Assembly (NCBI GenBank): GCA_022539475.1
Contig: VCMS01000349.1
Location: 1 to 55,890 of the forward strand
Direction: 5' to 3'
Origin: Gracilaria domingensis
Taxonomy: Eukaryota; Rhodophyta; Florideophyceae; Gracilariales; Gracilariaceae
DNA length: 55,890 nucleotides
Of the stretch, positions 30,575 to 55,541 are shown piece after piece. Under the pieces are notes generated by a model, which worked only from the letters and a program-made list of their open reading frames with translations, made no database searches and was not told the DNA's origin. Each line of letters starts with the position of its first letter. The first letter of the stretch is position 1. The position numbers and the translations under genes were made by a program.

Positions 30575-31146
30575 TGTAGTATAGCTCGGCCAGATCAACG
30601 GGGGCTCTACAAGACCAAGTGGTGACGTCACGGGCTCCCGGGCACGTGTGTCTACTGTACCACGTGGGACGCGCAAGCGCAGGCTTGGACAGGACTAATT
30701 AGTCTATTCTCGATAATTTAGAATTAATAATTACTAGGTAGTGTAGATATGTGGCCGGGGTGGTGCACCACAAATGCACCTCCCGGTGGCCCACGTGGCA
30801 CTAGGCCCGTGAGAGCCGGAGGGGCGCTCGGATGTACTAAACCCCCGAGCCGCCAACCTCCCACACCAAATGGTAAAGTCAAGCACCAACTAGGCTAATT
30901 TGACACCAGTTCGGTTCTACAGTCACCAATTGGTAAGTCTAGTAGTCCTCTAATAGTTTTGCTGACCTCGAGGGTTATACGTGCCTGCCGCACACCAGTG
31001 CAGGCGTATTTACCACTTGGTCACCGTGCACTATAGGCAACGGTGGGTGCTGCCGACCTATTAGGTGTCACGCGTTTCACTCCTCCGCCGGGTCGAGCCC
31101 ACGCGGGGCTCCCCACTAGCAGCTCGCACCGATCGGTTATACCACA
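30575..31146 (+). repeat. 5' LTR of Ty3/gypsy chromovirus
   Basis: 572 bp, TG...CA, offset from the 3' LTR by exactly 24,395 bp. Contains four exact ACCANNTGGT palindromes (30614, 30865, 30925, 31012). Confidence 0.95.
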
Positions 31147-31150
31147 TATT

Positions 31151-31166
31151 TTGGTCTCCCGACCTA
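31151..31166 (+). other. Candidate primer-binding site
   Basis: TGGTCTCCCGACCTAG begins four bases after the LTR. TGG would pair with a tRNA CCA end. Which tRNA is not clear to me. Confidence 0.6.
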
Positions 31167-31279
31167 GAAATCTGTGGATTACCAAGTGGTTTTGGGAAGG
31201 GAGGATTTGGAAGTCACGAGATACCCGAGTGGTTTGGTTCCCGTTGCCGAAGCAATTGGCTCCGACGCCAGTTACCTAA

Positions 31280-33547
31280 ATGGAGAAACGGGGCGCGCGC
31301 TACCCAAATAGGGCGCCGAGCGCTCCACCAAGTGGTCACCCCATACGGGGTTCAGTGTCCTATCCGGTGTTGGATAACCCGGAGGACCTGATTCGGAAGG
31401 AACGCCCACCGAGGGGGAAGAAGGTAGACCGAGAGGCTGGGGGCCCCTCGACCCTTCCCCGGGCTGACCAAGTGGACGGAGGAGCAGGCTCCGCAAGGGC
31501 GGAGCCCGCTCCTGTAACAACCCCAGTGGTAGACCAAATGGAGGTGCCAGTCGGACCGCGACTGGACTTGGACGAGGTCACCCGAGTGGTAGTTGATCGA
31601 GCCTCCCAGGAGGTCCTCGACAAGGTACCTGTGGTGGTGTTACAGTACCTCGAAAACGAGGTGCGAGGACACATCGACCGATTGGTTATGCTGGCTCTGC
31701 AGCAGCAGGGGGCTAAGCTTCAACCTGAGATGGTGGCCCAGGCCGCGCTCATGAAGCAAGCCCCCCGCCCGGCAGTAGAAGCCACCAAACCACTTGGTAT
31801 TCTCCATCCTACCCTTCCTACACAACCGATTGGTGAAGGATTTATCGACCGCATGGGGAAAGGGGCAGAGCCTCCAGGGATGGAGGGCCCGAGGTACGTG
31901 TACCTCCCCCAACCCACTGGTGTAGCTCCGTCAGGAGCACGTGATGGAGACCCTGATGGAGATTCGTCGAGCTCAGGAGACGAGCGTCGACGTAAACCAA
32001 ATGGTAAGAAGAAGAAAACCAAAAGGGGAAAGAGAAAGAGTCGCCGGTCGGACTCGGACTCTTCGTCCTCAGACACCGATTCGGATTCGTCAGGAGACGA
32101 CGACCGTACAGGTTCACGACGCAAGAGGAAGGACTCTCGCAAGAAGAAAGGAAAGAATCCCCGCAAGGGTAAGACCAAAAGGTATAACGATTCGGACTCA
32201 ACTTCCGACGAGGAGACTGACCTAGAGGTGCTTACGCCGCTCAATGATTTATTCACCAAAGCGGTTGACTATCGTACCTATAGGTTAGAGAACAGACAGG
32301 CTGAGTATACCAAAGAGGTAGCTCAGAAGATAACGAAGCATCATAGGAAGCTTCGTTTCCAACTGGGTGAAACTCGCTTTAGCGGGGATGACCCTATTGC
32401 GATCATTGATTTCCTTCAAAGGTTCAAGATCGCTTGTGATCAGAATGGGTTTTCAGAGGCAGCAGCCATGTGGCTGTTTCAATTCTACCTAACTGGTCAG
32501 GCTGGAGCGTTGCTCCACAGCCGCCTCCAAGGAAACACCATGGCGGTGGACGAAGACCAAACGGAAATGTTGACAACATACCCACAGGTGGTTAACTTCC
32601 TACTGGAAACCTACGCGACCGATGAGGTAATCCAGGAGGCGTACGCAGAGGTGCTTGCGTACCGCCAGCGCGCGGGACAAACCGAATTGGAATTCGCTCG
32701 CTCCTTATGGGCATTAGCCTCCCGCTGTGGAAGCGTCTTTACTACCAAAAGGTTGAAATCGATGTACGCCGACAACGTGGCGAAGTCTATCCGATCACAG
32801 GTTCGTAACTACCTAGCTACCAACCGCACGGTCGACTACAACGCACTAGCCGGCCATGCACAGGGACTAGGCGACACCGTTCGGTCAGGGGCCAGGAAAG
32901 ACTCCGCACCACTCGGCAAACCATCGAAGGAGAAAGGAAAGACCAGGCGGTCAGTGTTTGACGTAGAGGAAGAGAAGACCACTACGGAGGAGGCGTCCAC
33001 ACAATACGCCTCCCAGGGTCACCCAGTCCACTTGGTGCATGCGCAACCGACAACTCGATCGCACGGTAATACCTCTTGGTCCAGCTCGCTATCCAGCGAG
33101 CCACCCTCAAGACAAACCTCAGCTCCACCATCACAGGTATCCGTACTGGTCAGCCCGGTCCTAGCGGTACCATTCAAGCAATATGGTGAACAAGGACCAT
33201 ACCCGCAGCAACGGAGTGCAGTACCTACTGGAGGCCGTCCCCCATCGCGCGCGTCGTCGCTCGCGATGAAGGACCCCACAACCGGCAATCTCCTCTGTTG
33301 GTTCTGTTTGTCGCCCCACCACTTGGCAACAGCGTGCCCAAGTGTGGCTCCGCAGAACAGGAACGCTCTCCTGACTGCTCTCCAGCAGAACCACCAGGAT
33401 ATATTTGGGCCCCCGGCACGGAGCGCAGGCACGGGACACGCAAATGCGCGACCCAATGCAGCCACACCTCATCAGGTACACCTCGTCACGGAGCAGGACC
33501 AAACGGATCCCGCCCCGCAGGCGGAAAACGCCGAACAGTTGGGATAG
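31280..33547 (+). CDS. gag: Gag polyprotein of Ty3/gypsy element
   Basis: 755 residues from an ATG 134 bp after the LTR. Residues ~225-315 form a very charged Ser/Asp/Lys/Arg tract resembling SR or nucleolar proteins. The capsid region (~345-545) contains the retrotransposon Gag pattern around FSGDDPIAIIDFLQRFK and LEFARSLWALA. A single CCHC zinc knuckle, CWFCLSPHHLATAC (C-x2-C-x4-H-x4-C), lies near residue 672 and should bind RNA. The frame overlaps the protease frame by up to 250 bases, so pol is reached by frameshift or by separate initiation. Confidence 0.92.
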   Translation: MEKRGARYPNRAPSAPPSGHPIRGSVSYPVLDNPEDLIRKERPPRGKKVDREAGGPSTLPRADQVDGGAGSARAEPAPVTTPVVDQMEVPVGPRLDLDEVTRVVVDRASQEVLDKVPVVVLQYLENEVRGHIDRLVMLALQQQGAKLQPEMVAQAALMKQAPRPAVEATKPLGILHPTLPTQPIGEGFIDRMGKGAEPPGMEGPRYVYLPQPTGVAPSGARDGDPDGDSSSSGDERRRKPNGKKKKTKRGKRKSRRSDSDSSSSDTDSDSSGDDDRTGSRRKRKDSRKKKGKNPRKGKTKRYNDSDSTSDEETDLEVLTPLNDLFTKAVDYRTYRLENRQAEYTKEVAQKITKHHRKLRFQLGETRFSGDDPIAIIDFLQRFKIACDQNGFSEAAAMWLFQFYLTGQAGALLHSRLQGNTMAVDEDQTEMLTTYPQVVNFLLETYATDEVIQEAYAEVLAYRQRAGQTELEFARSLWALASRCGSVFTTKRLKSMYADNVAKSIRSQVRNYLATNRTVDYNALAGHAQGLGDTVRSGARKDSAPLGKPSKEKGKTRRSVFDVEEEKTTTEEASTQYASQGHPVHLVHAQPTTRSHGNTSWSSSLSSEPPSRQTSAPPSQVSVLVSPVLAVPFKQYGEQGPYPQQRSAVPTGGRPPSRASSLAMKDPTTGNLLCWFCLSPHHLATACPSVAPQNRNALLTALQQNHQDIFGPPARSAGTGHANARPNAATPHQVHLVTEQDQTDPAPQAENAEQLG

Positions 33548-34392
33548 AGGCCTTCCCCAACTGTCCGAAGACGGAAGGCCTTCCAGAACCAAGTGGTGCA
33601 AGTATGGACAATTACCCATTGGTTACAGGGGAGGAGAGCCTCATGGACGGCACCGAACCGATATGCTTTCTCAAGCATAGTAACTATAAGGTAAACGTCA
33701 CCCTCGGGTTTACTTCTAACCACTTGGTACCATGCGTCACTGTCCTGGACACCGGGGCAGGACCTAATCTGGTGAATGCCAAACTATTAACTAACAGACA
33801 ACTTAATAAGCTTCAGCCATGTACATTAACTAACCCACTGGTTGACGCCAACAACAGACCACTAACTGTCATGGGAGCGCTTACCATAATGGTATTGATT
33901 GACACCATGAGGGTCCGAGTTCGCTTCATAGTCGTTAACCAACTGGCAACAGACTGTATCCTTGGAACAACTTTTATAGACCAGCATGTCAGGGCAATTT
34001 TTCCACGTTCTAAGACAGTTCTGTTCCATAATGGCCCCCGGATCGCCATTATTGGTAACCACAAGGGTGCCTCGACGAAAGAGAACCGCACTCAACACCA
34101 ACCGGTCCCGGAAAACACACTCTCCAACAAGGTGCGATTGGCAAAGGCGGTAACAATACCGCCTATGAACCACTTGGTAGTGAAGGTCACATGCCAACAA
34201 CCTGGCCTGTTATCCATTCAGAACCATTCACGGTTGGCCGAACGACACATGATCTTAATGGCGAATGGTATAGTCGACAACATACCGACAAAACCGTTTC
34301 AGGTCTACCTGAGTAACTTCAGCAACCGCCCGGTCAAGTTGCCAAAACACACCGTAATTGGTCTTGCCTTACCCGTCTGTCTCTTGCAGATG
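33548..34392 (+). CDS. pol: Pol, protease part (5' half of a pol frame split by insertion)
   Basis: The frame is open from 33298 and overlaps the end of gag. The retropepsin-like active site is LDTGAG, about residue 155 of the open frame, in a typical Ty3 context. The segment ending KLPKHTVIGLALP is the usual protease-RT linker. At 34392 the frame runs into the nested DNA element; the open tail to 34668 is element sequence. Removing 34393-47566 joins this frame without stop to the RT part beginning at 47567. Confidence 0.85.
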
Positions 34393-34520
34393 CTAGTTTT
34401 TGGCGAGGGTCGTCCAGAAATTGGCAAGGGTCGTCCAGTAAATTTTTTGAAAAAATATCGAGATCAATTATTTCAAAATTTGCAGATAATTGCTTGGGTC
34501 GTCCAGAATCTCTGTGCAGT
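34393..34520 (+). repeat. Left terminal/subterminal region of the 13-kb element
   Basis: Starts CTAGTTTTTGGCGAGG. GGTCGTCCAG occurs three times (about 34409, 34430 and 34498). AT-rich between repeats. Such short subterminal repeats are usual transposase-binding sites in CACTA-type elements; that role is inferred. Confidence 0.6.
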
Positions 34521-34905
34521 AAATACTGGGGGGTTTTCCACTCGTGCTAGTTCTTTAGTCGAGGGCTACCTGAACTGTATTTCGCGAAGTCTAGGTTCAG
34601 TTTCCATTAAGGTGCACATTACACGATACCTTCTGCGGAATGATACCCTGCAACGCATGGAATACTAGTGCTAGTACAGATGATGCCCATTATGAAATCA
34701 TACCGTTTTATTCGTATCAATTCTTCTATCGACCGCTTTTGCTAACCACTACTTCGCTATATTACATGTACCATTTCCCCATAATGGATCGGGTGTAGGC
34801 GCAATCTGCGGCAGATGCCGCAGACTGCACCTCCACCATAGTGCTGGATCGGTAGAACACATACGCACTCCGAGAGGATGAGGCGCGAAGCGCCTCCTCC
34901 TCTCC

Positions 34906-34957
34906 GTTCCTCATGTAGGGAACCATGCCCAGATGCATGGTTCCCTACTTGAGGAAC
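34906..34957. repeat. Strong hairpin
   Basis: Inverted repeat GTTCCTCA-x-GTAGGGAACCATGC against its complement, ~24-bp arms with a 4-5 base loop and one mismatched position. Two smaller hairpins lie just before it (CTGCGGCAGATGCCGCAG near 34806 and AGGCGCGAAGCGCCT near 34881), so the stretch 34800-34960 is a cluster. Confidence 0.85.
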
Positions 34958-35593
34958 CTGCACCTGCAACTCGTGAGCTACGTCCGCATCAAAAGTCATT
35001 TACCTGTATACGCAAGCAGAAAGTATTCATAAGTTAGTCAATGATCCGTTAGATACATTTGAAATGCGATGGAACGTACCATTGATAAAACAAAACAGAA
35101 ACGTTGCGCTAGAAAAGTCGAGGGACCTGGTAACTCGCAAACGGAAGAAGAAGCAGGAAAGTGATCGGTTAGATTACCAGCCCACCATATCATCGTAAAC
35201 CGCGAAAGGTGTCGAAGCGAGAACTCACAAGCAAGGACACCGAGAATGCCCATGCAGCAAACATACCGCAAGACGCGATAAACGAGAATCTAGCCTATAT
35301 CCCAAACAAGTAGAGCTAGAGCTAGAGCCTATGGCGCAACGAAATGAACTATTGGTCGCGTACTTACAGTCGTCGGTTTGGGTTACCGGGTTCCCGTTTT
35401 CACCCTTCAACTCGTTCTATATCTTGAACAAATAGAAGAAGTTGAGGGTGATTAGCTTATTTCCTGCCGTTTCCATGTCGCAGAGCGCGAAGAAACGCGG
35501 TGAGGATTGGTTAGTTTAGAGCAAAGATACGTGGAAGGATATGGGAGAACGTACGAAAAGACTGCACGGAAAACATCCCTGAGATACGGATGA

Positions 35594-35668
35594 CTCCGTC
35601 CTACTTTCTTCCGCCCTCTACTTTATGGAGCCTCCATAAAGTGGAGGGCGGGAAAAAGTACGACGGAG
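35594..35668. repeat. Near-perfect 75-bp palindrome upstream of the transposase gene
   Basis: Arms of ~36 bp starting CTCCGTCCTACTTT and ending AAAGTACGACGGAG meet at GGAGCCTCC with almost no loop. A few mismatches. Located ~370 bp before the transposase ATG; could form a cruciform or an RNA hairpin. Confidence 0.85.
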
Positions 35669-36037
35669 CGGAGTATAACGCGATGATATCGATGGCATGG
35701 CTCACGACGGTAACGGAAGTTCGGACGTCGGAGGCGCGGCGGCGGCGGCGAAGGGAAGAGATTTATTTTTCTGTGCGAGATTGGACAAGTGTACAGCGTA
35801 CAACGTTGGGAAACCACAGGTTTATAACCAGTGGTAGATAATACGAGAAGTACACCCTTGTGTTGAGGTCGACGTGTACCTACGTTCCTTTTTGAACGAA
35901 AGCACGTGATTTAAACTCAAAATATATTCTCCGTTCTGAGCAAGACGTCGATATTGACTGTCGCTCGACCTCCTTCTCCCTTCGGACGCCCTTCCCTTGC
36001 AGTCTTTGTCGTCGTTTCTCGTTCAGTTCTTCTTCCC

Positions 36038-39000
36038 ATGGTCTACTACTGTACACATAAGAAGCGTGGGTGCCCCTTCGTTACTCGCCGAGGAGTCTTA
36101 TCCCTTCAACAGCATGTCAACCATTGCCCGTTTCGTCTGAAAGCAGCGCTGGAAGACGACAATAGCCGGCCCATTCGGAGAAGCAAGCGTCTCAAGCTTT
36201 CCGCGCCCGCGCCCGCATCTTCCGAAACGGTCACTGCCCCTTGTCGCCTTCCCGAGCCTCCAGTGTCCGAGGACATCGTCGACCCCACTCCGTGCGCCCC
36301 TCCCATTCCGGACACTTCGCATTGTGTTTCTCCTTCCCCGGTTCCCGCGTCATTAGAGCGAGAACACGGAAGCAGTTCCCGCCCAGTGCCTTCTGAGGAG
36401 GCCCTCGGTGATTTGCATATGGATTATCTCACGGTTTGTCTGGCTTCAGTAGCTTCCAACCTTGGTCATCGTGAGGCTGACGAGCTAATTGGGCTACTTC
36501 GGGACCCGCGATTCTCGCAAAAGCGATTCAACGAGACCATAACAAGTTCCAAGCGCTGTACAGAACTGAAGAACGCCATTTTCGAACGATACGCCTCAAA
36601 GGACGGTTTCAATCGCAGAACTGTCTCGCCAGAAGGATGTAAGTTCAGCGCCACCCTCTACACGAGAGACCCCGTTCAGACACTTGTGAAACAGCTCCAG
36701 TTGGCTAACAACGAAAACTCATTCTTCCACCCTATACCTCAGACCCACTCCACGAAAATATCTCACCCCATGTCCGGCTCTCTCGCAAGAGACGCCACCT
36801 CAAAACTTAAGGAAATGGTCATGGGCTCTTTGGATAGTAGAATAGTGTGGTACTCCCAAGAAATAAGTTACAGTGAATCTTTCGTAGGTCTTCTGCAGGT
36901 ATACACCGATAAGTCTTCAACAACTCTAAAGCAAACATCGGTTACCGCCTATCCTCTTCACCTCATATTTCTCAACTTTTCCGACCAGCTTCGCCGTAAG
37001 TGTATCCGTGACGACCTCACAGTAGTGGCATACTTCCCTACCACACTGATCGAGGTTTCCGCATCTGAAGCAGACGCAATGCCATTCGTTTCTAGCAAGT
37101 CTCTACGCGAGTCCAGGATGCAAATCCTTCAAGAATCTCTTCGTCAAGTCCTGGAGCCCATTCTAAATCTCAAGCAGAAAGGTTTTCAGTTCATCGGCGA
37201 AGACAAACTAAGTCGAGTGTGCCATCCTCTGCTTGCAAGTTATTGTGCGGACATTCCTGACGCTAAGGACATTCTGTCCATTCTTCATGGGACCAAAACG
37301 GAAAGCCCGTGTCATAGATGCAAAGCCCCTCGCTCATCTTTATGCAGTCCTATTCCCACCTCATTCAACGGACGTTCTCAGAAGCACACGAAAAGCATCC
37401 GAAAGACATACACAGCTATCTTGCAACATGCACAAAAAGACGAGGCGGAAAGACGTCCACGTCGTGCGAGGGAGGGGAGATCTCAAGCGGATACTCTGAT
37501 GCGTTCAAATTCCATATCTCTCATTCCTTCGTTCCTCGAAACTTCCGTAAGCCTTGGAATGATCCCGGGATTGTCTCCATACAGTCTGTTCTCATTCCAA
37601 CCATTACACAACTTGCATCTCGGCATCTCAAAGTTGATAAAAACGGCCACAATCGAGAGACTGCAGTCAGACACCCTGTGCACCACAATAGGAACATCTG
37701 CATCGCGTTCATTTCGAACGATACGCACCCAACTCCTCAACCATGCAAACGCAATTCTAGCTGCTATAGAACGCGATTCTCCTGCCAAAGGTTTACATAT
37801 CGATTTCTCCACGCAGGAGAAAGGCAAATCTTTGAATGGTATCTTCACGAAAGACGGTCTCCGTGGAATGCTGGAGGCCAAAAACTACAAAGCACTTGAC
37901 ATGGTCTTTCCCTTCATAGGAGCATTCTTTGACATATGCTGTGGAGAACAGAACGTTGCCCCAATCACAACCGTTTTCTCTCAGTTCTCGGACTTGCTCT
38001 CGACCTTATTCAGATACAATCGTGACCCGTATTGGACTGAAAGCTCTCTCCTGTGTCTTAGTTCGGAGATTGAAGCCTTCAAGCGTTCCGCAACAAAGAC
38101 TCTGGCGGATTTTCATCCCTCCAGACTGGGAAGTCTGAAGTTTCATCTTCTCGATCATCTCGTGGACGATATTCGCCGTCTGGGAAGTATCAAGTATTAC
38201 GACGCAGGCATATACGAACATGCACACCTGCTATTTAAAAGACACTACAAAAAAACGTCCAGAAGAACAGCAACGGCTGTGGAGGAGACTATTCGCTCCA
38301 TTGAGCACGGACATGTTAGAAAGCAATGGAATGGCAATACTCCTTACCAGCGTAATCCAGGTTTACCAGGAACTTCCACACAGCTTCCTCAGTTTGCAAT
38401 GAGAGGGCGTTCTTTCACTTTACGAGCTCTTCAACATTGTGTTTCAAGTATGTCCAGTTCAAAAACATGGACTGCTGTTAGAGAGATGTTCTCAAGTAGG
38501 GACACAAGGTCGATTCTTGATCAAATTGGTGAACAGGCCCTTCCTTCTTTCCTCAGTCTCGTGAAAGAAACACCGGATGAGCACTCTATTACATACTTCC
38601 CAGAAAAGACAAGGATAACTCTGGTGAATTCGGCCCTCGTGAAAGGCGGTTTCGTTCCGACTCTTGAACACTTCGATTCGTCTTCTAAGGCACTTAAGCT
38701 GGGACGACCCAAATACCCCATCATCCAACATGTCTTCGCTTCTCCAGCATTTGGTCCCAGTAGAAAGCCAAGGTTTTCCACTGTATTGGTAAGCGGAGAA
38801 GATTCAGAGACTTGGGTTGCCCAGGTAGTCGCTCTGATGTCGGCCACGTCGCGATTCGGAGCTATTGCAAAGGTCGCGTATTGTGCCAAAAGTCGCGGAT
38901 CAAGTGGGTGTGAAGCGCTAGTTTTCTCTAGTTTGATATATGTGCACGGCGTGTGCAGCGAAATCACTGCCGGAAGAGCCGGGAGGAGTGCTTTCGAAGG

Positions 39001-39076
39001 TCTCCGGAGGGTGCCAGAATGTGGCCAGAACGTGCCCGCGGGCGGGGGGGGGGGGGGGTCGGTCGTGTTAGGGTAG
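36038..39076 (+). CDS. Plavaka/CACTA-like DDE transposase
   Basis: 1,012 residues from the ATG at 36038 (CCCATGG). N-terminal zinc finger CTHKKRGCPFVTRRG...H-x3-C at residues ~3-28, then a disordered Pro/Ser linker. The core has the Plavaka/CACTA pattern: VYTDKSSTTLK with the first Asp, a YPLHLIFLNF segment followed by VVAYFPT, then CHPLLASYCADIPDAKDI with the second acidic site, SPCHRCKAPR (C-x2-C), and LHNLHLGISK, which corresponds to the HxLxLG block. It would cut and join DNA for the surrounding element. The final ~35 residues are translated from the foldback array that begins at 38959, so the natural C-terminus has been replaced or slightly shortened. Family assignment is from motif memory, with the exact subfamily unsure. 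Confidence 0.8.
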   Translation: MVYYCTHKKRGCPFVTRRGVLSLQQHVNHCPFRLKAALEDDNSRPIRRSKRLKLSAPAPASSETVTAPCRLPEPPVSEDIVDPTPCAPPIPDTSHCVSPSPVPASLEREHGSSSRPVPSEEALGDLHMDYLTVCLASVASNLGHREADELIGLLRDPRFSQKRFNETITSSKRCTELKNAIFERYASKDGFNRRTVSPEGCKFSATLYTRDPVQTLVKQLQLANNENSFFHPIPQTHSTKISHPMSGSLARDATSKLKEMVMGSLDSRIVWYSQEISYSESFVGLLQVYTDKSSTTLKQTSVTAYPLHLIFLNFSDQLRRKCIRDDLTVVAYFPTTLIEVSASEADAMPFVSSKSLRESRMQILQESLRQVLEPILNLKQKGFQFIGEDKLSRVCHPLLASYCADIPDAKDILSILHGTKTESPCHRCKAPRSSLCSPIPTSFNGRSQKHTKSIRKTYTAILQHAQKDEAERRPRRAREGRSQADTLMRSNSISLIPSFLETSVSLGMIPGLSPYSLFSFQPLHNLHLGISKLIKTATIERLQSDTLCTTIGTSASRSFRTIRTQLLNHANAILAAIERDSPAKGLHIDFSTQEKGKSLNGIFTKDGLRGMLEAKNYKALDMVFPFIGAFFDICCGEQNVAPITTVFSQFSDLLSTLFRYNRDPYWTESSLLCLSSEIEAFKRSATKTLADFHPSRLGSLKFHLLDHLVDDIRRLGSIKYYDAGIYEHAHLLFKRHYKKTSRRTATAVEETIRSIEHGHVRKQWNGNTPYQRNPGLPGTSTQLPQFAMRGRSFTLRALQHCVSSMSSSKTWTAVREMFSSRDTRSILDQIGEQALPSFLSLVKETPDEHSITYFPEKTRITLVNSALVKGGFVPTLEHFDSSSKALKLGRPKYPIIQHVFASPAFGPSRKPRFSTVLVSGEDSETWVAQVVALMSATSRFGAIAKVAYCAKSRGSSGCEALVFSSLIYVHGVCSEITAGRAGRSAFEGLRRVPECGQNVPAGGGGGGSVVLG

Positions 39077-45615: not shown

Positions 45616-45694
45616 AGATAGTAGCATAAATTTATTGTTTATTACATTGTTACCTTTACGTGTTATCACAACTAAATTCTCCGTCTCCATTGGA

Positions 45695-46248: not shown

Positions 46249-47178
46249 ATGTCGAACGGATACGTGAAGGATGAGGAGCTGTGGGTGCTGTTGGAGGGGA
46301 AGGAGGTACCGCAGACGCCGTCACCAAAGCGGGAAGAGGACGTGATTACGGCGGCTGGTCGGATGTCGCAGAAGAAGGAAGTGGCTGAGGAAGGAAAGAA
46401 GTGTGAGGCGAGGAGAGGGGATGGTGATGAGGTGGAGAAGGGGGTAGAATTGGAGGTGGAGGGGGTCGCAATGGAGAGAAGGGGTGCGGTGCATCTGAGT
46501 CAGTTAGAGGTTGGAGACCAGATAGAGAGTGGGGGCGGAGAGGGTGACAGGGAGATGCGGTTTGTGGGGGAGATGAAGGCGAGGGTGGGGATGTTGGGGT
46601 TGGTGATGAAGGAGCAACTGGACGATGGAATTGTGGAGATTGTAACGGAAATGGGCGGTGTGGTGCTGAGTGGGGGTGGTAGTGGTGTTTCGGTTGAGGC
46701 GATTTCGAGCTTGCGGAATTCGTTGTCGGTATTGGGAGTGGAGATGAGAAATCATGTGTATGGGATAGTGGAGTGTGCGGGAAGGGAGGTTGGAGAGTTG
46801 CGGGAGGAGAATAGGGTTCTGAACGAGAGGTTGGACGTGCTGGAGAAGGAGGTGAAGGAGCTGTGCAAGAGGCAAAGATTGGTGGAAGAGGAGAGGGTGA
46901 AAGGAGGTGTGGAGGGAAAGACGGAGAAGGGAAGTGTGGGAAGGGTGGCGGTGCAGAAGGGGTCTCCTGTGACACCGAAGACAAAGGGTGGTGGGGTTGG
47001 GGATGGGAAGAGCCGTCTGAAGAAGAGGCGTAAGGAGATGAAGAAGGTGGTGGAGGAGGTGCCGCGGGAGGGAGTGGGAGCTCCGGTGGTGACTGGGTTT
47101 AGGAGTGCGGCGGAGGTAGCGCGGACTGCGAAGGGGATTCTGAGGGGACAGGAGGAGAGAAGGATGGGAGGGATTTGA
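46249..47178 (+). CDS. Uncharacterised coiled-coil protein of the 13-kb element
   Basis: 309 residues from ATG 46249 (GAAGATGTCG). Highly charged, with Glu/Lys/Arg in excess. A coiled-coil is likely around residues ~180-235 (EVGELREENRVLNERLDVLEKEV). A basic patch SRLKKRRKEMKK near residue 265 could be a nuclear signal or nucleic-acid contact. The composition is G-rich and the strand strongly purine-biased, unlike its neighbours. No family recognised. Layout (linker, coiled coil, basic tail) is similar to retroelement ORF1 proteins or transposon accessory proteins, but that is only a resemblance. Confidence 0.6.
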   Translation: MSNGYVKDEELWVLLEGKEVPQTPSPKREEDVITAAGRMSQKKEVAEEGKKCEARRGDGDEVEKGVELEVEGVAMERRGAVHLSQLEVGDQIESGGGEGDREMRFVGEMKARVGMLGLVMKEQLDDGIVEIVTEMGGVVLSGGGSGVSVEAISSLRNSLSVLGVEMRNHVYGIVECAGREVGELREENRVLNERLDVLEKEVKELCKRQRLVEEERVKGGVEGKTEKGSVGRVAVQKGSPVTPKTKGGGVGDGKSRLKKRRKEMKKVVEEVPREGVGAPVVTGFRSAAEVARTAKGILRGQEERRMGGI

Positions 47179-47566
47179 AGCCGTTTTGGGGCGAGGCGGG
47201 TATACGAGAAGGGGGAGAGTTGTGCACCTGACTTCTACAAAATGAACGCGTGATGGGCGAGAAATGGGTAAATAGCGGGGGTGGTGTGGACTGGGAAGAA
47301 GTGATGGGATGATTGAGGTGGGATGAGTTGCGATTGGCATTGCAACATGGGAGAAAATGGAAACGCAAACTAGCACGAGTGCAGTTTTGAGAGAGGGTCG
47401 CGGAAAAGAGTGAATGGGGTGGTGCGGCGAAGTAGAACCTCTACAAAAACTAGGGGACCCAAGAACTAAACTGCGCGAGATGGAATTTAATATTCCAAAA
47501 TTTCTTAATTTTTTGAGTGCCAGCCTCTGCTACCCCCTCGCGCGCCCCAAATAGCCCCAAAACTAG
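47179..47566. repeat. Right terminal region of the 13-kb element
   Basis: Non-coding. Ends in CCCCAAAACTAG at 47566. A block reading, in reverse complement, GCGCAGTTTAGTTCTTGGGTC lies ~95 bp inside and resembles the left-end block at about 34482-34500. CCTCTACAAAAACTAG at 47440-47455 is also similar to the left terminus, leaving some doubt about the exact end. Confidence 0.55.
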
Positions 47567-50500
47567 CTTAGTTTCCAAAGCGAACAGACTATATTCCACT
47601 TTGCAGAACACAGACGCCGGCTCCCCGTACGATCTTTACAATTATACCACAATGGTCCCACGAGGTCGTGGATGCTAAGGAACGGGGGGGGCAGTGTCAA
47701 TTCGTTGAATTCGTCGCGAACAGACCATATGGTGCAGCGACTAGCTGAGCGAGAAGACCAGAAACTGGAGCTCGACCCAGTGACCAATTGGAAGACGGAG
47801 GTGAATATAGGACTTGAAGGGGAAGAGCTCAGAGCTCGGATCCTTGGACTCCTGGAGCCATTCAGTACCATGTGGTCGGGTAAGCTGGGAGCCATTAAGG
47901 CCACCCAGCACAGGATTGACCTCAAACCGGACTCCCGTCCCATCCACCAACAGCCATACCGCGCGGGACATAAGGCCCGTGAGGTAGAGCTGGAGGAGGT
48001 AGAGCGGATGCTCCGCGAGGGGGTTATAGAACCGGCAAACTCGGAATGGGCTAGCCCTGTAGTGCTAGTCCAAAAACGAGGAGAGACCCGTATGAGGTTC
48101 TGTATTAACTACAGAAAACTTAATGCCGTAACGGTAAGGGACTCGTACCCCATCCCGAGGATGGATGAATGCATCGACTCCCTAGGAGATGCGAACATCT
48201 TTACCACACTGGACGCCAACTGCGGGTATTGGCAGATCGAAATACCAGAGAGTGACCGTGATAAGACTGCGTTTACATGCCACGCAGGCCTGTATCGCTT
48301 CTTACGCATGCCGTTTGGTTTAAGAAACGCCCCCGCTACCTTCCAAAGGGCGTTAGACATTATACTGTCTAAAGTGAAGTGGACAACCGCATTGGTATAC
48401 ATAGATGACGTAGTCATCTACTCGAGGTCCATAGAGGAGCACTTCTCACACGTCCAAGTGGTACTGCAGTTGCTACAAGAGGCAGGCGTGACCCTCAAAC
48501 TACGAAAGTGTATGTTCTTCAACCAAGAGGTAGAGTACCTAGGGCATACAATAAGCCCCGGGAAACTCGAAGTGACCAAACGGAATATCCGAGCGGTACA
48601 GGAAGCGAAGCTCCCTACGTCGCAGACGGACATACGATCCTTTATAGGTCTATGCAACGTCTACCGGCGGTTCATCAAGGGTTTTGCAAAGATAGCCGCA
48701 CCCCTGAACCGGAGGTTGCAGAAGGGGCAGCCCACACACTTTGACCACCTGGAAGAGGACGAGGTAGAGGCGTTCTATACATTGAAAGCAGCGCTTCTCT
48801 CGCCACCGGTACTGGCATTGCCCAAAACGGGACTCCCGTATACACTGGACACGGATGCGTCGGACGCCCAAATAGGTTGCTGCCTAATGCAGGAACAGGA
48901 GGACGGCAAGCTCGCACCAATTGGGTATTGGAGTAGAGCTCTTAACCAAGCGGAGCAGAACTACACCGTAACGGAGAAGGAATGCCTAGCGGTTGTTTGG
49001 AGCATGCTCATGCTACGTCCTTACCTATATGGTGTGCGCTTCACGCTCCGAACGGATCACGACTCCTTGAGGTGGATATTAGGCTTGGCGGACGCATCGG
49101 GTCGTCTGGCCCGATGGCGTCTGAGACTCTCGGAGTTTGAGTACGATGTGCAGTACCGCCCCGGGGTCAAGCACCGAGTGGCGGATGCATTGTCCCGGTT
49201 GAATACCGAAGGATTGGACACTGACCCAGTGGACGACGACATCCCATGCTTTACTATAGAACCAGCTAACCACGAGGTCAATGAAGTTCTGAAGGGATAC
49301 TGGCATGATGACAGTACGTACCAAGTGGTAGTGGAGACCCTCCTTCCTGTGGAGGAAGGGGAACACGCTCCAATCACCCGTGAGGAATTCTTACGCGAAC
49401 AGTCGACCGATAGGTTGTGCAAAACGCTCGCTGACGTACTTGGAAGGAAGGATTCTCATTTTGATGTCGACCACAATGGGTACCTCATCAGACGCTCACC
49501 TTTAGACGGAGCTCTCCAGAAGGTCGTACCTGAGTCATTAAGACAAAGGGTGTTATATCTGTCACACAATCCACGGCTTTCGGGACACCCTGGAGCCACG
49601 CGGTTGTACTATACCCTTCGGAGGCAATTCTACTGGCCGCATATGGCTAACGATGTATATACCTATGTGGCGCAATGCAATTCGTGCATTAAGACCCGAG
49701 GTGGTGTGGCGAAGCACAGGAAGTACCTAAAGCTATTCCCGGCGGCGGGGCCCCTGGAATTCGTAGCAATCGACATACTGGGGCCCCTGCCCAAGACCTC
49801 AGAGGGTTATCGCTTTGTAGTAGTCATAACCGACAGGTTCACAAAGCTCACCAGAGCCATACCTCTGAAGAACCAAACGGCAACGACACTAGCGACAGCC
49901 TTCCTGGAGAATTGGGTCTACCCGTACGGTGCTCCCATGTACCTACTGACCGATAACGGTTCGAACCTAGCTTCTAAGTTCTTCGAGGCGGTTTGTACAA
50001 TGCTAGGGGTCAAGCACTACTTTACCACGGCCTATCATCCGCAAACAAACGGCCAAGTGGAACGCTTCAATAAGACCCTAGTGGCACGCCTACGGCACTA
50101 TGTCGAAGAGCACCAAACCACATGGTCTGAGTATGTCCAACCATTGACATATGCGTACAACCTCCAGGTCCACAGGGTCACTCAAACAACCCCATTCGAC
50201 CTGGTACTTTCGCGAACACCACATGGTATTATCGTCCAGCCCGGACCTGACCGCTCGGAAGCGGCAGGGACACTCACACCGGCGAAGGTCAAGAGAGACA
50301 TACTCCAGAAGTTACGCGCCGCTTTGGCTGCTGCCAAAGTTAAGATGACAGCAGCCCAAGAACGGTATAAAGCGGACTATGACCGAACGGTGAGCAAAGT
50401 GACCAAAGTGGTAGCAGGAGACATGGTCTTCCTTGACGTGCCACCAAAAGGTAAGCGACCAACCCCAGCGGAGATGGAAGAGGACATCCGCCTTGAGGAG

Positions 50501-51094
50501 GATATCAATTCTAAACTACTACCCAAGTCCACGGGACCATACAAGGTGATTCGCTCCGACGAGCATACCGCTACGGTCATAATGGAAGGTTTGGAGAACA
50601 CGGTCTCCATCGACAGGATTGTCAAGGCCGCACAACCGACGACAGCGAATGCACAACCAATAGGTGAGCCAACGCAGCAGGAAGCGGAGAGGGAGCAAAC
50701 GTCTCCCATACCCCCTCCTATGATGAGTCAGCCGAGCGGTCAACCTTCCACCAGAGCCGTAACGGCTGCCCCCACGACCCAAGCGGCACAGGAGATCGAG
50801 CCTCGGCAAGACCAACGGGTCACACCACCCACGGGGAGCCACGCACTCCATGACCAAATGGAAGAGTCACACCCTCAAGTAGACACTCAGGAGTGCGCTA
50901 TTGACACCATTGTAGGTCACGAACACACCACAAAGGGTATGCGCTACCGGGTAAGATGGTATGGATGGTCGCCCGAGCACGACTCTATGGAACCACCTGG
51001 TCATATCCCTAACAACTTCATCATCCGATACTGGCGCAAACAAGGGCGAACGCCCCCACCAACTGGTATTGCTTCGCGTGGTACGCGTCGCTAA
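47567..51094 (+). CDS. pol: Pol, RT-RNase H-integrase-chromodomain part (3' half of split pol)
   Basis: Open from 47567; first ATG 47672 (1,140 residues from there). RT includes MPFGLRNAPATFQRAL and the catalytic YIDD (residues ~243-246). RNase H has DTDASDAQIG (~392) and TEKECLAVVW. Integrase has an HHCC finger (HPGATRLYYTL...CNSC), then D (VAIDILGPLP, ~700), D (LTDNGSN, ~760) and E (TNGQVERFNKTL, ~795). A chromodomain closes the protein (MRYRVRWYGWSPEHDSMEP, ~1090-1120), which usually targets integration to marked chromatin; with it the element is a chromovirus. All catalytic motifs look intact, but the 13-kb insertion separates it from protease. Confidence 0.96.
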   Translation, partial: LSFQSEQTIFHFAEHRRRLPVRSLQLYHNGPTRSWMLRNGGGSVNSLNSSRTDHMVQRLAEREDQKLELDPVTNWKTEVNIGLEGEELRARILGLLEPFSTMWSGKLGAIKATQHRIDLKPDSRPIHQQPYRAGHKAREVELEEVERMLREGVIEPANSEWASPVVLVQKRGETRMRFCINYRKLNAVTVRDSYPIPRMDECIDSLGDANIFTTLDANCGYWQIEIPESDRDKTAFTCHAGLYRFLRMPFGLRNAPATFQRALDIILSKVKWTTALVYIDDVVIYSRSIEEHFSHVQVVLQLLQEAGVTLKLRKCMFFNQEVEYLGHTISPGKLEVTKRNIRAVQEAKLPTSQTDIRSFIGLCNVYRRFIKGFAKIAAPLNRRLQKGQPTHFDHLEEDEVEAFYTLKAALLSPPVLALPKTGLPYTLDTDASDAQIGCCLMQEQEDGKLAPIGYWSRALNQAEQNYTVTEKECLAVVWSMLMLRPYLYGVRFTLRTDHDSLRWILGLADASGRLARWRLRLSEFEYDVQYRPGVKHRVADALSRLNTEGLDTDPVDDDIPCFTIEPANHEVNEVLKGYWHDDSTYQVVVETLLPVEEGEHAPITREEFLREQSTDRLCKTLADVLGRKDSHFDVDHNGYLIRRSPLDGALQKVVPESLRQRVLYLSHNPRLSGHPGATRLYYTLRRQFYWPHMANDVYTYVAQCNSCIKTRGGVAKHRKYLKLFPAAGPLEFVAIDILGPLPKTSEGYRFVVVITDRFTKLTRAIPLKNQTATTLATAFLENWVYPYGAPMYLLTDNGSNLASKFFEAVCTMLGVKHYFTTAYHPQTNGQVERFNKTLVARLRHYVEEHQTTWSEYVQPLTYAYNLQVHRVTQTTPFDLVLSRTPHGIIVQPGPDRSEAAGTLTPAKVKRDILQKLRAALAAAKVKMTAAQERYKADYDRTVSKVTKVVAGDMVFLDVPPKGKRPTPAEMEEDIRLEEDINSKLLPKSTGPYKVIRSDEHTATVIMEGLENTVSIDRIVKAAQPTTANAQPIGEPTQQEAEREQTSPIPPPMMSQPSGQPSTRAVTAAPTTQAAQEIEPRQDQRVTPPTGSHALHDQMEESHPQVDTQECAIDTIVGHEHTTKGMRYRVRWYGWSPEHDSMEPPGHIPNNFIIRYWRKQGRTPPPTGIASRGTRR

Positions 51095-51246: not shown

Positions 51247-53463
51247 TTAGGAGGCCTTGGAGGACCCACGGCCACGTCCGCGTCCACGACTGGTTCCACG
51301 ACCGCGACCACGTCCACGGGAGGTCCCACGAGATGAAGCGGAACCTCCACGACCAGAGGACACCGACATAGGTCCGGCGGAGCTTCCGCCCCCGCCGCTA
51401 GCCGCGCTCGGTGGCGCACCACCACTTGGTAAGGGAGCAGAAGTACCAGCAGGTCCCGCAGGGGTACCGCTGCTGACTACCGGCATGGTATTCGCAGGAC
51501 CAGTGGGTGGATGGAAGGAAGGCGGTAAGCTAGACGGAGGGATGCCACCAGAGGTCGGAGGAGCAAGACCACTAGACGGCCCTGCACCGGGGGTCAGACC
51601 AGTAGGCGGCCTAGGAGCACCGGACGTCGGCGGAAGCGGAGCCGAACGGAAACCAGTTGAGAAACCACTTGGTGCTCCTGTCCCAGTGCTTGCTGGAGGA
51701 AGAGGAACGTTGTGAGGACCAAGCGGAGTATGGAAAGGTGCCGCAGGATCACCACCAGGAGGTCCACCAGGGAGTTGATACGTACCAAGGCCACCAAAGC
51801 CTACCATTGGGGTCGCAGGTTGCTGTGACGCAGGAGCGTACGGGTTGAAACTTTCCACAGGGGGTCGATGTAACGGCGCGTGGCCTTCCACAAGGTTGCT
51901 CAACTGACCAACATAGGCTGTCACCTCACGGTAGAGATTGCGCTGGAAGTAGTCGCGGAACTGTCGCAGCTCAGAAGTGCGCCGCTCGTGGTGAGCAACC
52001 ACGGGGAGCAAGTTGGTAAGAGTATCCACAGCGGTGAGGATGTCATTGGGACCAGGACGGTTGAAGTGCACCATCGGGGCGTGGTTGAGACGAGCCAGAG
52101 CGCTCCGTATCGCGCCACTATCACCACCAGGGGGCACCGGATTCACCGGAAGCGACTGGAAACCAACCCGAGGAGGCCCCTGGGCAGCCCGTCCGGGAGG
52201 GTAAGCAGCCGCCTGAGGGTTCGCCGGACCACTTGGAACAGGCGCAGCCACGCTGGTCGGAGGAGTAGCCTGTACAGGTGCCGACGGAGGCAATGCAGGG
52301 GACTCATAGTTCTCGGCAGCCACCATCACGGTATCGTCATTACCAAATGGGTCTTCGCCAGCCATGTGCTGCTGTTGGAGAGGCACGATGCTATGAACCT
52401 CCGGGTCGTAGACATCCCAACCCTGTTCAGGCCCCCAATTGTGGTTACTTACCGCAGTAAGGTAGCCATCCAACTGCTGCGCAGTATATTTGGTGCCCTC
52501 CACGATGTTGGAGAGCCCCATGGCACGAATGTCGCCGACCACATCGTTGGGAATATTGAAGATACGACCAACTGGTTGAGTTCCGCTGATCCCGACAGAC
52601 TTGTCAGGGCAGCGCGTGTCCCAAGTCACACCTTCCACGGAAGCCTGAAGGGCGAGGATAGCCACCATGACGGCCCACTCGCTGCGCGCGACCGACCAAA
52701 CGGCATATTCGTTGTTCCTCTCGAGGGAGATGCTACTACCAAAGTACGCAAGGACCGGCGGGGTCGGCACTTCCAGCCACTGACATACTTCATAGTGGTC
52801 CCACCAAGAGGGTCGATTGACGTACCATGCCCGGCGGTTGTGGTCGCTCTGCGACCAATACTCAACGTTGTGGAACAGGAACATGGTCCGCGTACGGTTG
52901 TTACGGTGACGAACACGGCTCTCAGCCATCGCATCGGTCGCCCACCTCCCACGGTCAGTCCAATAATTGGTATCCAAAGGGCGCTCAAAGGCGACGTACT
53001 CCAGATCGACCTCGAGGTGAGTAGCAGGTTCGTCCAAGCGGTGAAGGATATCTACCAAACGGCGGAAGTAGTGGACCTCCCCATCGCAGCGGATGAAGGG
53101 GAGATCCGACGGTACGGCCACGGGGATGTAGTATAGAAACTTCGTGTGTCGCTGCCGCGCATGGAAACACTGTTGTCGACCGAACCGGCTCTGCTTCTCG
53201 CCCTTGCGTGGTGGAGGAGGTGCCATAGGCACCGCCTCCAACCGGCGACAATCCCAACGGGCAATTGCGGTATACTGCGTGAGACCCATGTGGCGGAACC
53301 GCAAGGGACAGAGTGAGGAACTGATGTGGAAAGGCCAGTTCCCCAGAGCGACCAATTCGGCGGAGATATCGGCAAAGCGTGCACCATAGTGGGCATGCGG
53401 CTGCCCGTGCGTCCTATTAAGGTCATGAGGATTCAGCTGTTGAGCCTCCACCGTACCGGCCAC
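51247..53463 (-). CDS. Antisense accessory ORF of the Ty3 element
   Basis: 738 codons on the strand opposite gag-pol, between pol and the 3' LTR. The frame is open upstream to about 53561 without an ATG, so 53463 is not a true start. The first ~370 residues are rich in Trp, Tyr, His and Arg and look like a folded domain (AYFGSSISLERNNEYAVWSV, HNVEYWSQSDHNRRAWYV). The rest is Pro/Gly/Ala-rich and ends in a repeated GRGRGRGTSRG tail, typical of RNA-binding RGG proteins. I recognise no family. Length and composition argue it is a real gene and not a shadow, since no sense-strand gene overlaps it. Expression would need an antisense promoter; none is identified. Confidence 0.7.
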   Translation of the reverse strand: MAGTVEAQQLNPHDLNRTHGQPHAHYGARFADISAELVALGNWPFHISSSLCPLRFRHMGLTQYTAIARWDCRRLEAVPMAPPPPRKGEKQSRFGRQQCFHARQRHTKFLYYIPVAVPSDLPFIRCDGEVHYFRRLVDILHRLDEPATHLEVDLEYVAFERPLDTNYWTDRGRWATDAMAESRVRHRNNRTRTMFLFHNVEYWSQSDHNRRAWYVNRPSWWDHYEVCQWLEVPTPPVLAYFGSSISLERNNEYAVWSVARSEWAVMVAILALQASVEGVTWDTRCPDKSVGISGTQPVGRIFNIPNDVVGDIRAMGLSNIVEGTKYTAQQLDGYLTAVSNHNWGPEQGWDVYDPEVHSIVPLQQQHMAGEDPFGNDDTVMVAAENYESPALPPSAPVQATPPTSVAAPVPSGPANPQAAAYPPGRAAQGPPRVGFQSLPVNPVPPGGDSGAIRSALARLNHAPMVHFNRPGPNDILTAVDTLTNLLPVVAHHERRTSELRQFRDYFQRNLYREVTAYVGQLSNLVEGHAPLHRPPVESFNPYAPASQQPATPMVGFGGLGTYQLPGGPPGGDPAAPFHTPLGPHNVPLPPASTGTGAPSGFSTGFRSAPLPPTSGAPRPPTGLTPGAGPSSGLAPPTSGGIPPSSLPPSFHPPTGPANTMPVVSSGTPAGPAGTSAPLPSGGAPPSAASGGGGSSAGPMSVSSGRGGSASSRGTSRGRGRGRGTSRGRGRGRGSSKAS

Positions 53464-53972
53464 CGCAAGAGGGTTAACGTTGCTCGGGCCCGCGGCGGCT
53501 GCGTAGGGATCATACCCACCGCGCCGTAAGGGTCTTGACGAGAACGCGTACTCGACCGCGTGTTAGGCTTGAAGATGCCACCTCCGCGGCCGCGCGCCAC
53601 CCCAGGGGTCTTGCCAGACATCCTCGACCGGGAGGCAACAGTTTCGCGAACCGAATGGTTGACCTCCGCCGAGGGGGAGACTTCAGAAGCCGAATATCCC
53701 TTTATAGGGTCGAAGTGCGGCTCCTCCAATACCAAGTGGTTGGCCTCCACGGGAGCCTCGGCGCCCGATGGAAAGGACACAGGTGTACCGGTCTGGGACG
53801 GCAGACAGGGCTGCGAAGAGTCAACCACGTGGTAATTCGATTGAAACGGCGCCGTCTCACCCCCGGGGTCCACCACAACGGGAAGGGCGCACGTGATGCC
53901 CTCCTCGGCACCGTCTTCACGGCGTTCGAACGTCATCGACCACCCCGTTGGGGAAGCGGGTTGATCACCCAT
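53433..53972 (-). CDS. Possible 5' part of the antisense ORF, in another frame
   Basis: 179 residues from ATG 53972 (MGDQPASPTGW), acidic then basic, ending with GRGGG and an Arg/Ser stretch. It overlaps the start of the 738-codon frame by about 130 bases in a different frame. A frameshift, a very short intron or a mutation in this copy could fuse the two. No family recognised. Confidence 0.45.
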   Translation of the reverse strand: MGDQPASPTGWSMTFERREDGAEEGITCALPVVVDPGGETAPFQSNYHVVDSSQPCLPSQTGTPVSFPSGAEAPVEANHLVLEEPHFDPIKGYSASEVSPSAEVNHSVRETVASRSRMSGKTPGVARGRGGGIFKPNTRSSTRSRQDPYGAVGMIPTQPPRARATLTLLRWPVRWRLNS

Positions 53973-54956
53973 GAGGTATAAAAGGCGCGAGTTGGAGCGA
54001 GAGCGTGCCACGGAGGATACCAACCGAGAGGGGGAACACCACCAATTGGATGACTAGATGAAACCTGAGGGGTCACAGAGAACGGGCACGCCGCTCGAGC
54101 GAGCTGACACACCGTGAAAATGACCAGGGTTGTGCGCCGGCTGGACGGGTTCCGTGAACCAGGGAGGTTACAACCACCCCAGAGGGAACCTAAGGGACGG
54201 AAGGAGACCGCGAGGAACCAGGTGGAGGGGCGTTGAACGCCACGCAGTCGGGTAAACCCCTCGGCTGGACCTGAATCAAGCCTGAACACCCCGATGAGGC
54301 AGACACTAGGTAGAAGCGGCGTCAGCACCGGTACGGTCACGAAGTCTGAAGAGCCACGGGCAGGAGTCTCCTCACCCTCGACGCGGCCGCCCAAGGCAAC
54401 GACACCCCAGTGGCGCCCTCACTCAAGCGGAGAGACAGTACGTGTCGGAACCAACGAGGTATCACCTCAGTACGGCACAAGACCAAGTGGCCAACAGAGA
54501 ATAGGAGCGACACCACGAGGGGGCGGTGTGCCGATCGGTTGACAACTGCGAACCCCACCGAAGGGAGGCTCGAAACCAACTGGTAAGCCGGGACTAACCC
54601 GCCCAGGGGGAGGACGGACAGGGGAAGATGGAGTGACGGACTCCTCCGGGAGGGACCAAAGAGGCGAAGACAACCACGTGGTACCAGGCGCGCGACAAGA
54701 TCAACCTGAATGGTCGCGGTTCGCGGTTTCGCGTTCCAATACCACGAGGGACGTAAGGTACGATCGCACCTACCACAGGGGGTACGGCGGCGTGGGTAAT
54801 GGCGCTGCAGTGCATGTGGCGAGCCGCGCCGTGCACCGCGCCATCTTCGCGTCATCGCGAGACGCGCCGTGCGCCAGGCGATGCGCGCCGACGACCGTTT
54901 GGTGAAAAGGCGGCAAACGCCGTGGGACCTTCGCAGCCACGGGGCGTGCCTGTCGG
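53973..54956. other. Non-coding region before the 3' LTR
   Basis: No supported gene. It contains exact ACCANNTGGT sites at 54575 and 54673 and several near matches. Confidence 0.5.
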
Positions 54957-54969
54957 TAGGAGGGGGGTC
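54957..54969 (+). other. Polypurine tract of the Ty3 element
   Basis: GGTAGGAGGGGGG followed by TC immediately before the 3' LTR at 54970. The usual primer site for plus-strand DNA synthesis. Confidence 0.85.
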
Positions 54970-55541
54970 TGTAGTATAGCTCGGCCAGATCAACGGGGGC
55001 TCTACAAGACCAAGTGGTGACGTCACGGGCTCCCGGGCACGTGTGTCTACTGTACCACGTGGGACGCGCAAGCGCAGGCTTGGACAGGACTAATTAGTCT
55101 ATTCTCGATAATTTAGAATTAATAATTACTAGGTAGTGTAGATATGTGGCCGGGGTGGTGCACCACAAATGCACCTCCCGGTGGCCCACGTGGCACTCGG
55201 CCCGTGAGAGCCGGAGGGGCGCTCGGATGTACTAAACCCCCGAGCCGCCAACCTCCCACACCAAATGGTAAAGTCAAGCACCAACTAGGCTAATTTGACA
55301 CCAGTTCGGTTCTACAGTCACCAATTGGTAAGTCTAGTAGTCCTCTAATAGTTTTGCTGACCTCGAGGGTTATACGTGCCTGCCGCACACCAGTGCAGGC
55401 GTATTTACCACTTGGTCACCGTGCACTATAGGCAACGGTGGGTGCTGCCGACCTATTAGGTGTCACGCGTTTCACTCCTCCGCCGGGTCGAGCCCACGCG
55501 GGGCTCCCCACTAGCAGCTCGCACCGATCGGTTATACCACA
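54970..55541 (+). repeat. 3' LTR of Ty3/gypsy chromovirus
   Basis: 572 bp, same length and ends as the 5' LTR, followed by the target duplication CTTCG at 55542-55546. By eye only one or two substitutions separate the LTRs. Confidence 0.95.

Follow-up and report, generated by a model that had tools for sequence, protein, structure and literature searches.

A family-specific dyad array in Ty3 retrotransposons of the red alga Gracilaria domingensis and a candidate reader encoded antisense to gag-pol

The Ty3 retrotransposon at positions 30575-55541 of contig VCMS01000349.1 of the red alga Gracilaria domingensis carries a dense array of a short inverted repeat, ACC-N4-6-GGT, which runs through its long terminal repeats (LTRs), genes and non-coding DNA and is kept by selection among the copies of its family. 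All coordinates refer to the forward strand of the window, i.e. the whole 55,890-nt stretch of DNA analysed. Related Ty3 elements of the same genome bear dyads of other forms, together with homologues of an antisense gene that in the window element lies between pol and the 3' LTR. Family-specific dyads selected as DNA and a conserved protein encoded by the same elements are best explained if the elements encode a dimeric DNA-binding protein of their own, which labels them over their whole length; that the antisense protein is this family-specific dimeric binder of the dyads, most likely serving anti-silencing, is in our judgement an evenly balanced proposition.

A dyad array maintained by selection

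The initial annotation had reported the palindrome ACCANNTGGT at 29 positions, and all 29 were recovered exactly as listed. The window holds 32 in total, the additional three (29834, 29921 and 29981) lying in a diverged inverted LTR copy, which had correctly been said to keep three sites. ACCANNTGGT is absent from positions 1-29705, from a nested 13-kb element (0 in 34374-47616, again as annotated) and from the DNA beyond the 3' LTR. The signal reported earlier is thus real, but its size was understated: ACC-N4-GGT occurs 62 times, ACC-N5-GGT 37 times and ACC-N6-GGT 19 times, with 4.6 sites expected for each (N7 gives 8), and ACCANNTGGT is the subset of dyads with A..T inside, found in 25 of the 62 N4 sites. 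In a scan of inverted repeats covering 64 trinucleotides and spacers of 1-20, ACC-N4-GGT ranked first, followed by CCA-N2-TGG (46 vs 4.1 expected, mostly the same sites) and then by the N5 and N6 forms. Substituting any C or G of the N4 core lowers the count to 0-1.03 of expectation, and with the outer A or T substituted 2.1-3.9 of expectation remains. Other arrangements with spacers of 0-15 reach at most 12 vs 4.6 (GGT..ACC), 13 vs 6.4 (ACC..ACC) and 10 vs 3.4 (GGT..GGT). AAC-N5-GGT and ACC-N5-GTT are enriched 6.6-fold and 5.5-fold, an excess that we read as ACC-N4-GGT sites one base out of register.

Counting both LTRs, the element contains 127 ACC-N4-6-GGT dyads, one per 92 bp. Their density is 8-16 per kb in the LTRs, gag, pol, the antisense open reading frame (ORF) and non-coding element DNA alike, in agreement with the annotated view of an element-wide signal independent of reading frame, and 0.24-0.30 per kb in the flanking DNA and the nested insert, with 7 dyads in 29.7 kb of flank. 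The spacing between dyads resembles random placement (coefficient of variation 0.92; random 0.85-1.14), and no helical phase was found within the element.

Dinucleotide shuffling of the window (100 shuffles) yielded ACCANNTGGT 0.93 times on average and 4 times at most, as compared to the 32 observed. Separate counting of the element's two parts, with one LTR, gives ACCANNTGGT 25 times and the backwards pattern TGGTNNACCA twice, each against 0.23 expected, and leaves the dyad counts given above unchanged; the dyad array is significant in either part alone (p = 2e-22 and 6e-27). Throughout the 77.9-Mb genome ACCANNTGGT has 4164 sites and the backwards pattern 1620; the element is ~40-fold denser than the genome mean, which includes the family copies. 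The first three contigs account for 33 listed places in a span of at least 1.85 Mb, near the shuffled expectation. Thirty slices of family copies (4.7-5.2 kb, the window's own included) contain 9-12 ACCANNTGGT each and no backwards pattern. In synonymous-codon shuffles, 2000 per ORF, the observed number of ACCA..TGGT was reached in none for gag (3 sites) and pol (7) and in one for the antisense ORF (3). For the whole ACC-N4-6-GGT class the observed count was reached in none of the three ORFs (27 vs a shuffle mean of 6.3 in gag, 30 vs 8.0 in pol, 18 vs 5.5 in the antisense ORF); for N5 alone it was reached in 11 of the 2000 pol shuffles. Chance, composition and a codon or peptide origin of the array are rejected on these dinucleotide and synonymous-codon controls. 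Neither a genome-wide density equal to that of the element nor a loss of enrichment under such controls, the two outcomes that the initial annotation had named as grounds for dropping the signal, was found.

Selection on the dyads is visible among the copies of the family, of which 40 DNA matches were obtained (from 40 of 142 candidates scored). The array is present in all eight further copies read over 9.9 kb each, which are 81-97% identical to the window element, share ancestry and hence are not independent tests. Exact sites are kept at between 8 of 18 aligned positions (L032) and 20 of 21 (L038), with 21-83% of same-shape windows kept in the same copies as control. The core is 92-99% identical, the central NN 79-95% and the flanks 75-98%, the central NN falling below the core in 8/8 copies (narrowly in L037). 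Compared to composition-matched windows, N4 and N5 sites are better kept in 8/8 copies and N6 sites in 7/8, one of them barely (L034, 6/16 vs 0.36), the exception being L031 (3/14 vs 0.30). The synonymous-site constraint that had been proposed as a check is also found: four-fold degenerate codon sites are 80-97% identical in the core vs 62-79% outside in all seven copies tested (p = 7e-3 to 1e-6; L038, 97% identical, was left out), and those in the spacer exceed the outside as well (0.70-0.84 vs 0.62-0.79).

The element and its parts are as follows.

29706..30262, - strand: diverged inverted LTR copy, 91-92% identity; 7 dyads, 3 of them ACCANNTGGT
30575..31146, + strand: 5' LTR, 572 bp, TG...CA; 9 ACC-N4-6-GGT dyads, 4 of them ACCANNTGGT
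31147..34373, + strand: gag and protease part; 44 dyads, 7 of them ACCANNTGGT
31280..33547, + strand: gag ORF, 755 aa; 27 dyads
34374..47616: nested DNA transposon with Plavaka-type (KDZ) transposase, 13.2 kb; 4 dyads, no ACCANNTGGT
47617..51094, + strand: pol part with reverse transcriptase (RT), RNase H, integrase and chromodomain; 31 dyads, 7 of them ACCANNTGGT
51247..53463, - strand: antisense ORF, 738 aa, RGG tail, between pol and 3' LTR; 18 dyads
53433..54023, - strand: N-terminal part of the antisense gene, in a different frame in the window copy
53464..54969: start of the antisense gene and leader up to the 3' LTR; 15 dyads, 4 of them ACCANNTGGT
54970..55541, + strand: 3' LTR, 572 bp; 9 dyads, 4 of them ACCANNTGGT

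The two LTRs match at 571 of 572 positions, and a 5-bp duplication, CTTCG, lies on both flanks of the element. By eye, the gag ORF contains a CCHC-like knuckle. The order RT-RNase H-integrase with a chromodomain at the C-terminal end of the integrase (Pfam Chromo, 26.2 bits, cut-off 25.1) is that of Ty3 chromoviruses. The nested transposon is outside the array system and serves as an internal control; it has short inverted ends, CGTCTGT...ACAGACG, several more ORFs and, at 38978-39623, a cluster of ~110-bp tandem units with inverted repeats of 67-74 bp between them. In the host DNA adjoining the element a RelA/SpoT homologue (HD, RelA_SpoT, TGS and ACT domains) is encoded at 25377-28817 on the minus strand. 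A host stretch around a Nudix-domain ORF (22001-26000) has 69-75% GC, the rest of the window being near 50%, and positions 1-18600 contain several direct duplications whose copies lie 4.3-11.2 kb from each other and in some cases match without a difference over 300 bp (e.g. 257-556 vs 8935-9234).

Arrays of sister families and the target of the dyads

Five LTR elements of the genome were sampled blind to their sequence from integrase matches by score group (150 of 1868 candidates scored), comprising two Ty3 (L039, L040) and three copia elements (L041-L043), with 2236 masked bases in L041 and 232 in L039. Two partial Ty3 elements of ~7 kb each were added: L044, picked for its antisense homologue, and L045, a control taken from RNase H matches. 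L039 contains CCG-N3/N4/N5-CGG 33, 33 and 21 times (3.95 expected), L040 CC-N6-GG 151 times (61 expected; flanks CCG, CCT, CCC and TCC) and L044 ACC-N6-GGT 20 times (2.5 expected), besides 15 sites with N8 and 13 with N5. The best dyad score, given as -log10 p, is 46 for the window element, 18.9 for L039, 13.6 for L040 and 11.6 for L044, and 3.8, 3.8, 4.5 and 5.2 for L045, L041, L042 and L043, in which no convincing antisense homologue was seen. Shuffle maxima (60 shuffles each) are 4.2-6.4, L042 and L043 lying just over their own (4.4 and 5.1), and no comparable array was found in this one Ty3 and these three copia elements. Copia L043 and L042 show a slight excess of TAGA-N4-TCTA (7 vs 0.10 and 4 vs 0.16). 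CC-Nx-GG is most enriched with a spacer of 4 for the window family and of 6 for L039, L040 and L044, with values of 0.62-1.17 in the control L045. In 2000 codon shuffles the counts of the L039 gag and pol classes were reached in 0-1 and those of the L040 pol classes in 0-2.

The form of the dyad argues for a site on DNA. Mirror variants of the N4 dyad are enriched alike (GCC..GGT and ACC..GGC both 2.40; TCC..GGT 3.50 and ACC..GGA 3.88; CCC..GGT 2.12 and ACC..GGG 3.30), and the wobble ACT..GGT, which would keep a stem, is not enriched at N4 (0.37). As stem-keeping wobbles are not favoured over stem-breaking mirror images, the target is most likely double-stranded DNA, a conclusion we regard as well supported. 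The earlier proposal that the signal acts on nucleic acid is supported, a dispersed binding site being its most likely nature. A signal in RNA or in a single-stranded hairpin is very improbable. Inverted repeats with short spacers could fold into tiny hairpins, and at positions -1 and +2 of the array families Watson-Crick symmetry is enriched, but G.U and A.C pairs there are mostly both at or below expectation, so that the G.U signature is absent apart from a hint in L040 at N5 (G.U 14 vs 14.5 expected, A.C 6 vs 13.5). Furthermore, GG-Nx-CC, an equally stable stem, remains at 0.60-1.40 of expectation for spacers of 1-12, and a stem of three base pairs is short for stability. What speaks for an RNA or single-stranded signal, and counts against a symmetric site, is the spacer: the second base is A or C in 53 of the 62 ACC-N4-GGT sites and the mirror base G or T in 34, a difference between strands that would not be expected of a symmetric site on double-stranded DNA. 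This bias is found again in six further family copies (L034: 30/37 and 17/37) and is not seen in L039 (19/33 and 16/33).

Binding of the array by a host transcription or chromatin factor, either an E-box binder or a host silencer, is not much more probable than the hairpin. The initial annotation had suggested an extended E-box read by a bHLH-like factor, since CANNTG lies within ACCANNTGGT, and dispersed sites could be used by host factors. This idea is not supported: the centre of the dyad is free, spacers of 4, 5 and 6 all occur, and the half-sites of sister families are different ones (CCG...CGG, for instance), which leaves CC-Nx-GG and not CANNTG as the common core. A CANNTG of fixed spacing needs an A..T that 37 of the 62 ACC-N4-GGT sites lack, and N5 and N6 are enriched as well. 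Dyads that differ among sister families would be unexpected from one host factor, and the scarcity of dyads in the flanking DNA likewise tells against it.

The antisense gene and the candidate binder

The antisense ORF is retained, antisense to gag-pol, in most copies of the family. Its gene is interrupted in the N-terminal part in the window copy; a search of the genome with the protein gave 64 matches from 61 scored of 1071 candidates, many of them with frames above 900 codons (935-946 in many copies) and others with stops. Among eight copies of the window family the ratio of non-synonymous to synonymous substitution rates (dN/dS) falls between 0.10 and 0.15 in the antisense ORF, as compared to 0.12-0.21 in pol, showing that the antisense protein is under purifying selection. 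Homologous antisense ORFs were found in L040 and L039 (window vs L040 E = 1e-8, window vs L039 2e-13, L040 vs L039 2e-7) and in L044 (629 aa, 47% identical to that of L040), i.e. in 4/4 array-bearing families, L044 having been chosen for possessing one. In the array-less L041, L042, L043 and L045 tblastn with 19 protein queries yielded no convincing homologue, the best E values, over short stretches, being 0.014, 0.17, 0.007 and 0.13. Among the binders considered in the initial annotation, the RGG-tailed antisense product is therefore now the best candidate.

A profile search detected 13 relatives of the antisense protein, among them one from Gracilariopsis chorda, one from Agarophyton chilense and one in a bacterial metagenome-assembled genome (MAG) record, and a second search two more. 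With the window ORF alone phmmer gave no match at E 0.001 (7997 candidates scored), Pfam no domain at E 1 for the ORF and two relatives, a sequence search of solved structures no hit better than E 0.85, and a search of viral contigs with three relatives no confirmed match. For one relative, P0001, AlphaFold2 gave a model with high confidence in much of the stretch from residue 85 to 460; a prediction with the window protein first reached a mean pLDDT of 50.

Elements of this Ty3/chromovirus-type clade carry, along their whole length, an inverted repeat particular to the family with the core CC-N4..8-GG, and each dyad is a putative double-stranded DNA site to which a dimeric protein would bind. 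The antisense gene of the element itself most likely encodes this reader, and the protein of each family would recognise its own half-site and spacing, ACC-N4-GGT in the window family. Such a protein might coat its own copies end to end while sparing those of sister families, and the presumed purpose would be to keep element chromatin active against host silencing. The pairing of gene and array suggests the antisense protein as dyad binder, and analogy with known systems suggests anti-silencing as the outcome. In its widest form, the proposal is a clade-wide self-recognition code with one palindrome per family, written synonymously through genes and LTRs in scores to more than 100 copies and read by an antisense-encoded binder of new fold for escape from silencing; we advance it tentatively, at somewhat less than even probability.

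Several observations weigh against this proposal. The four array families form a single pol clade (43-66% mutual identity, 31-35% to L045), and a chromodomain occurs in all four, in L039 below the cut-off and in L044 by sequence pattern only; with one clade sharing both chromodomain and antisense gene, gene and array may have become paired just once. The families are also few, four with an array (three represented by one copy, two partial or masked) and four without. In L040 the inner neighbours of CC-N6-GG are symmetric across several base pairs (87/151 vs 39 expected), which is not explained by one half-site specificity and perhaps reflects several binder specificities or overlapping registers. 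Codon shuffles of L044 are mixed, the count being reached for ACC-N6 in 0 (pol) and 5 (antisense ORF) of 2000, for ACC-N8 in 688 and 0 and for ACC-N5 in 73 and 53. Duplicated host DNA and the nested insert also exceed their own shuffles (-log10 p 7.0 for window positions 1-21 kb and 6.3 for the insert), with CGC-N12-GCG and CGC-N2-GCG as motifs; both contain duplicated stretches and neither the ACC..GGT dyad. As to the protein, the P0001 model matches no solved fold at E 0.001 and no viral fold under E 0.001, and the net positive charge of its core is not strong (48 K+R, 44 D+E).

An artefact of composition, codon use or repeats could appeal to the partly coding, G+C-rich nature of the element and to such duplication-driven scores elsewhere, but is contradicted by the dinucleotide and codon shuffles, the four-fold-site constraint and the family specificity of the dyads, and its probability is negligible. 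That the integrase with its chromodomain, or Gag, reads the array, e.g. by binding its own cDNA or targeting existing copies, would fit the chromodomain common to the four array families and not found in L045 or the copia polyproteins. However, the pol proteins of L040 and L044 are 66% identical despite different preferred dyads, whereas the antisense proteins have diverged further (47%), so that the antisense gene follows the change in motif better than pol does, and array-less elements carry integrase and Gag, too; we consider this improbable, though less so than a host factor. The antisense protein may instead bind the dyads for another step, be it compaction or escort of cDNA or copies, limitation of copy number or LTR transcription. 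Even coverage of LTRs and coding DNA, random-like spacing and the lack of helical phase suit coating or compaction, and the RGG tail suggests condensation of nucleic acid. Compaction or escort, however, has no obvious need for half-sites that differ between families, which self/non-self discrimination would explain better, and we rate such another step as unlikely, albeit the strongest of these alternatives. Since the predicted binding site accompanies the antisense gene family by family, the function of the antisense ORF is directly testable. If the antisense protein indeed reads the dyads, the coding sequence of a retroelement has been rewritten by the element so as to hold a binding site roughly every 92 bp, LTR retrotransposons possess sequence-specific self-marking, and nature provides in these families several DNA-binding proteins, each paired with its target and differing in specificity.

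Comparison with known systems

DNA uptake sequences, KOPS and Chi are short motifs, dense in coding DNA, that label DNA for a dedicated protein. These are bacterial, whereas the dyads described here are family-specific palindromes in a retroelement. With chromovirus Ty3/Gypsy elements the window element shares the CCHC-like gag knuckle, the order of RT, RNase H and integrase and the C-terminal chromodomain, and it goes beyond them in its extra antisense gene and element-wide dyad array. Our searches of open-access papers listed none that describes arrays of this kind in LTR retrotransposons or the antisense protein family.

The plant Ty3 elements Grande, RIRE2 and Retand also have antisense ORFs in the interval from pol to the 3' LTR (aORF-3R), whose function, in the part of the account consulted, is called unknown (PMC7264820). 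The gene described here resembles them, as far as that text goes, in position, orientation, Ty3/Gypsy host element and lack of a known domain, and differs in the dispersed motif, none being mentioned there for the plant elements (PMC7264820). The antisense relatives found here include two red-algal records and one bacterial MAG record, the aORF-3R named above being those of plant elements; the names Grande, RIRE2 and Retand are absent among the relatives from our profile searches, no direct comparison having been made. Retand is assigned, in an excerpt, to a non-chromovirus lineage (PMC11963269), whereas the elements described here carry a chromodomain.

The closest parallel in logic may be the anti-silencing VANC proteins of VANDAL elements, Mutator-like DNA transposons of Arabidopsis; a VANC protein binds its motif and brings about a loss of DNA methylation. 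According to excerpts of two accounts, these proteins are encoded by the transposable elements and act on a short motif of their own family, YAGTATTAY or AGTTGTCC/AC, often in tandem repeats of non-coding regions (PMC5735166, PMC10398659). As far as these excerpts go, each family has its own short motif and related families differ, as is found here with ACC-N4-GGT, CCG-N3/4-CGG, CC-N6-GG and ACC-N6-GGT, and the VANC effect spans whole elements of the same family, which by analogy we propose for the dyad binder (PMC5735166, PMC10398659). In contrast to VANDAL, the present element has LTRs, gag, RT, RNase H and integrase, and instead of tandem non-coding targets it bears dispersed dyads of flexible spacer in gag, pol, the antisense ORF and LTRs; no Pfam family matches the antisense protein. 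Should the anti-silencing reading be right, the system would be convergent with VANC, a retrotransposon counterpart that evolved independently in red algae and through which an antisense ORF of a retrotransposon would acquire a known role.

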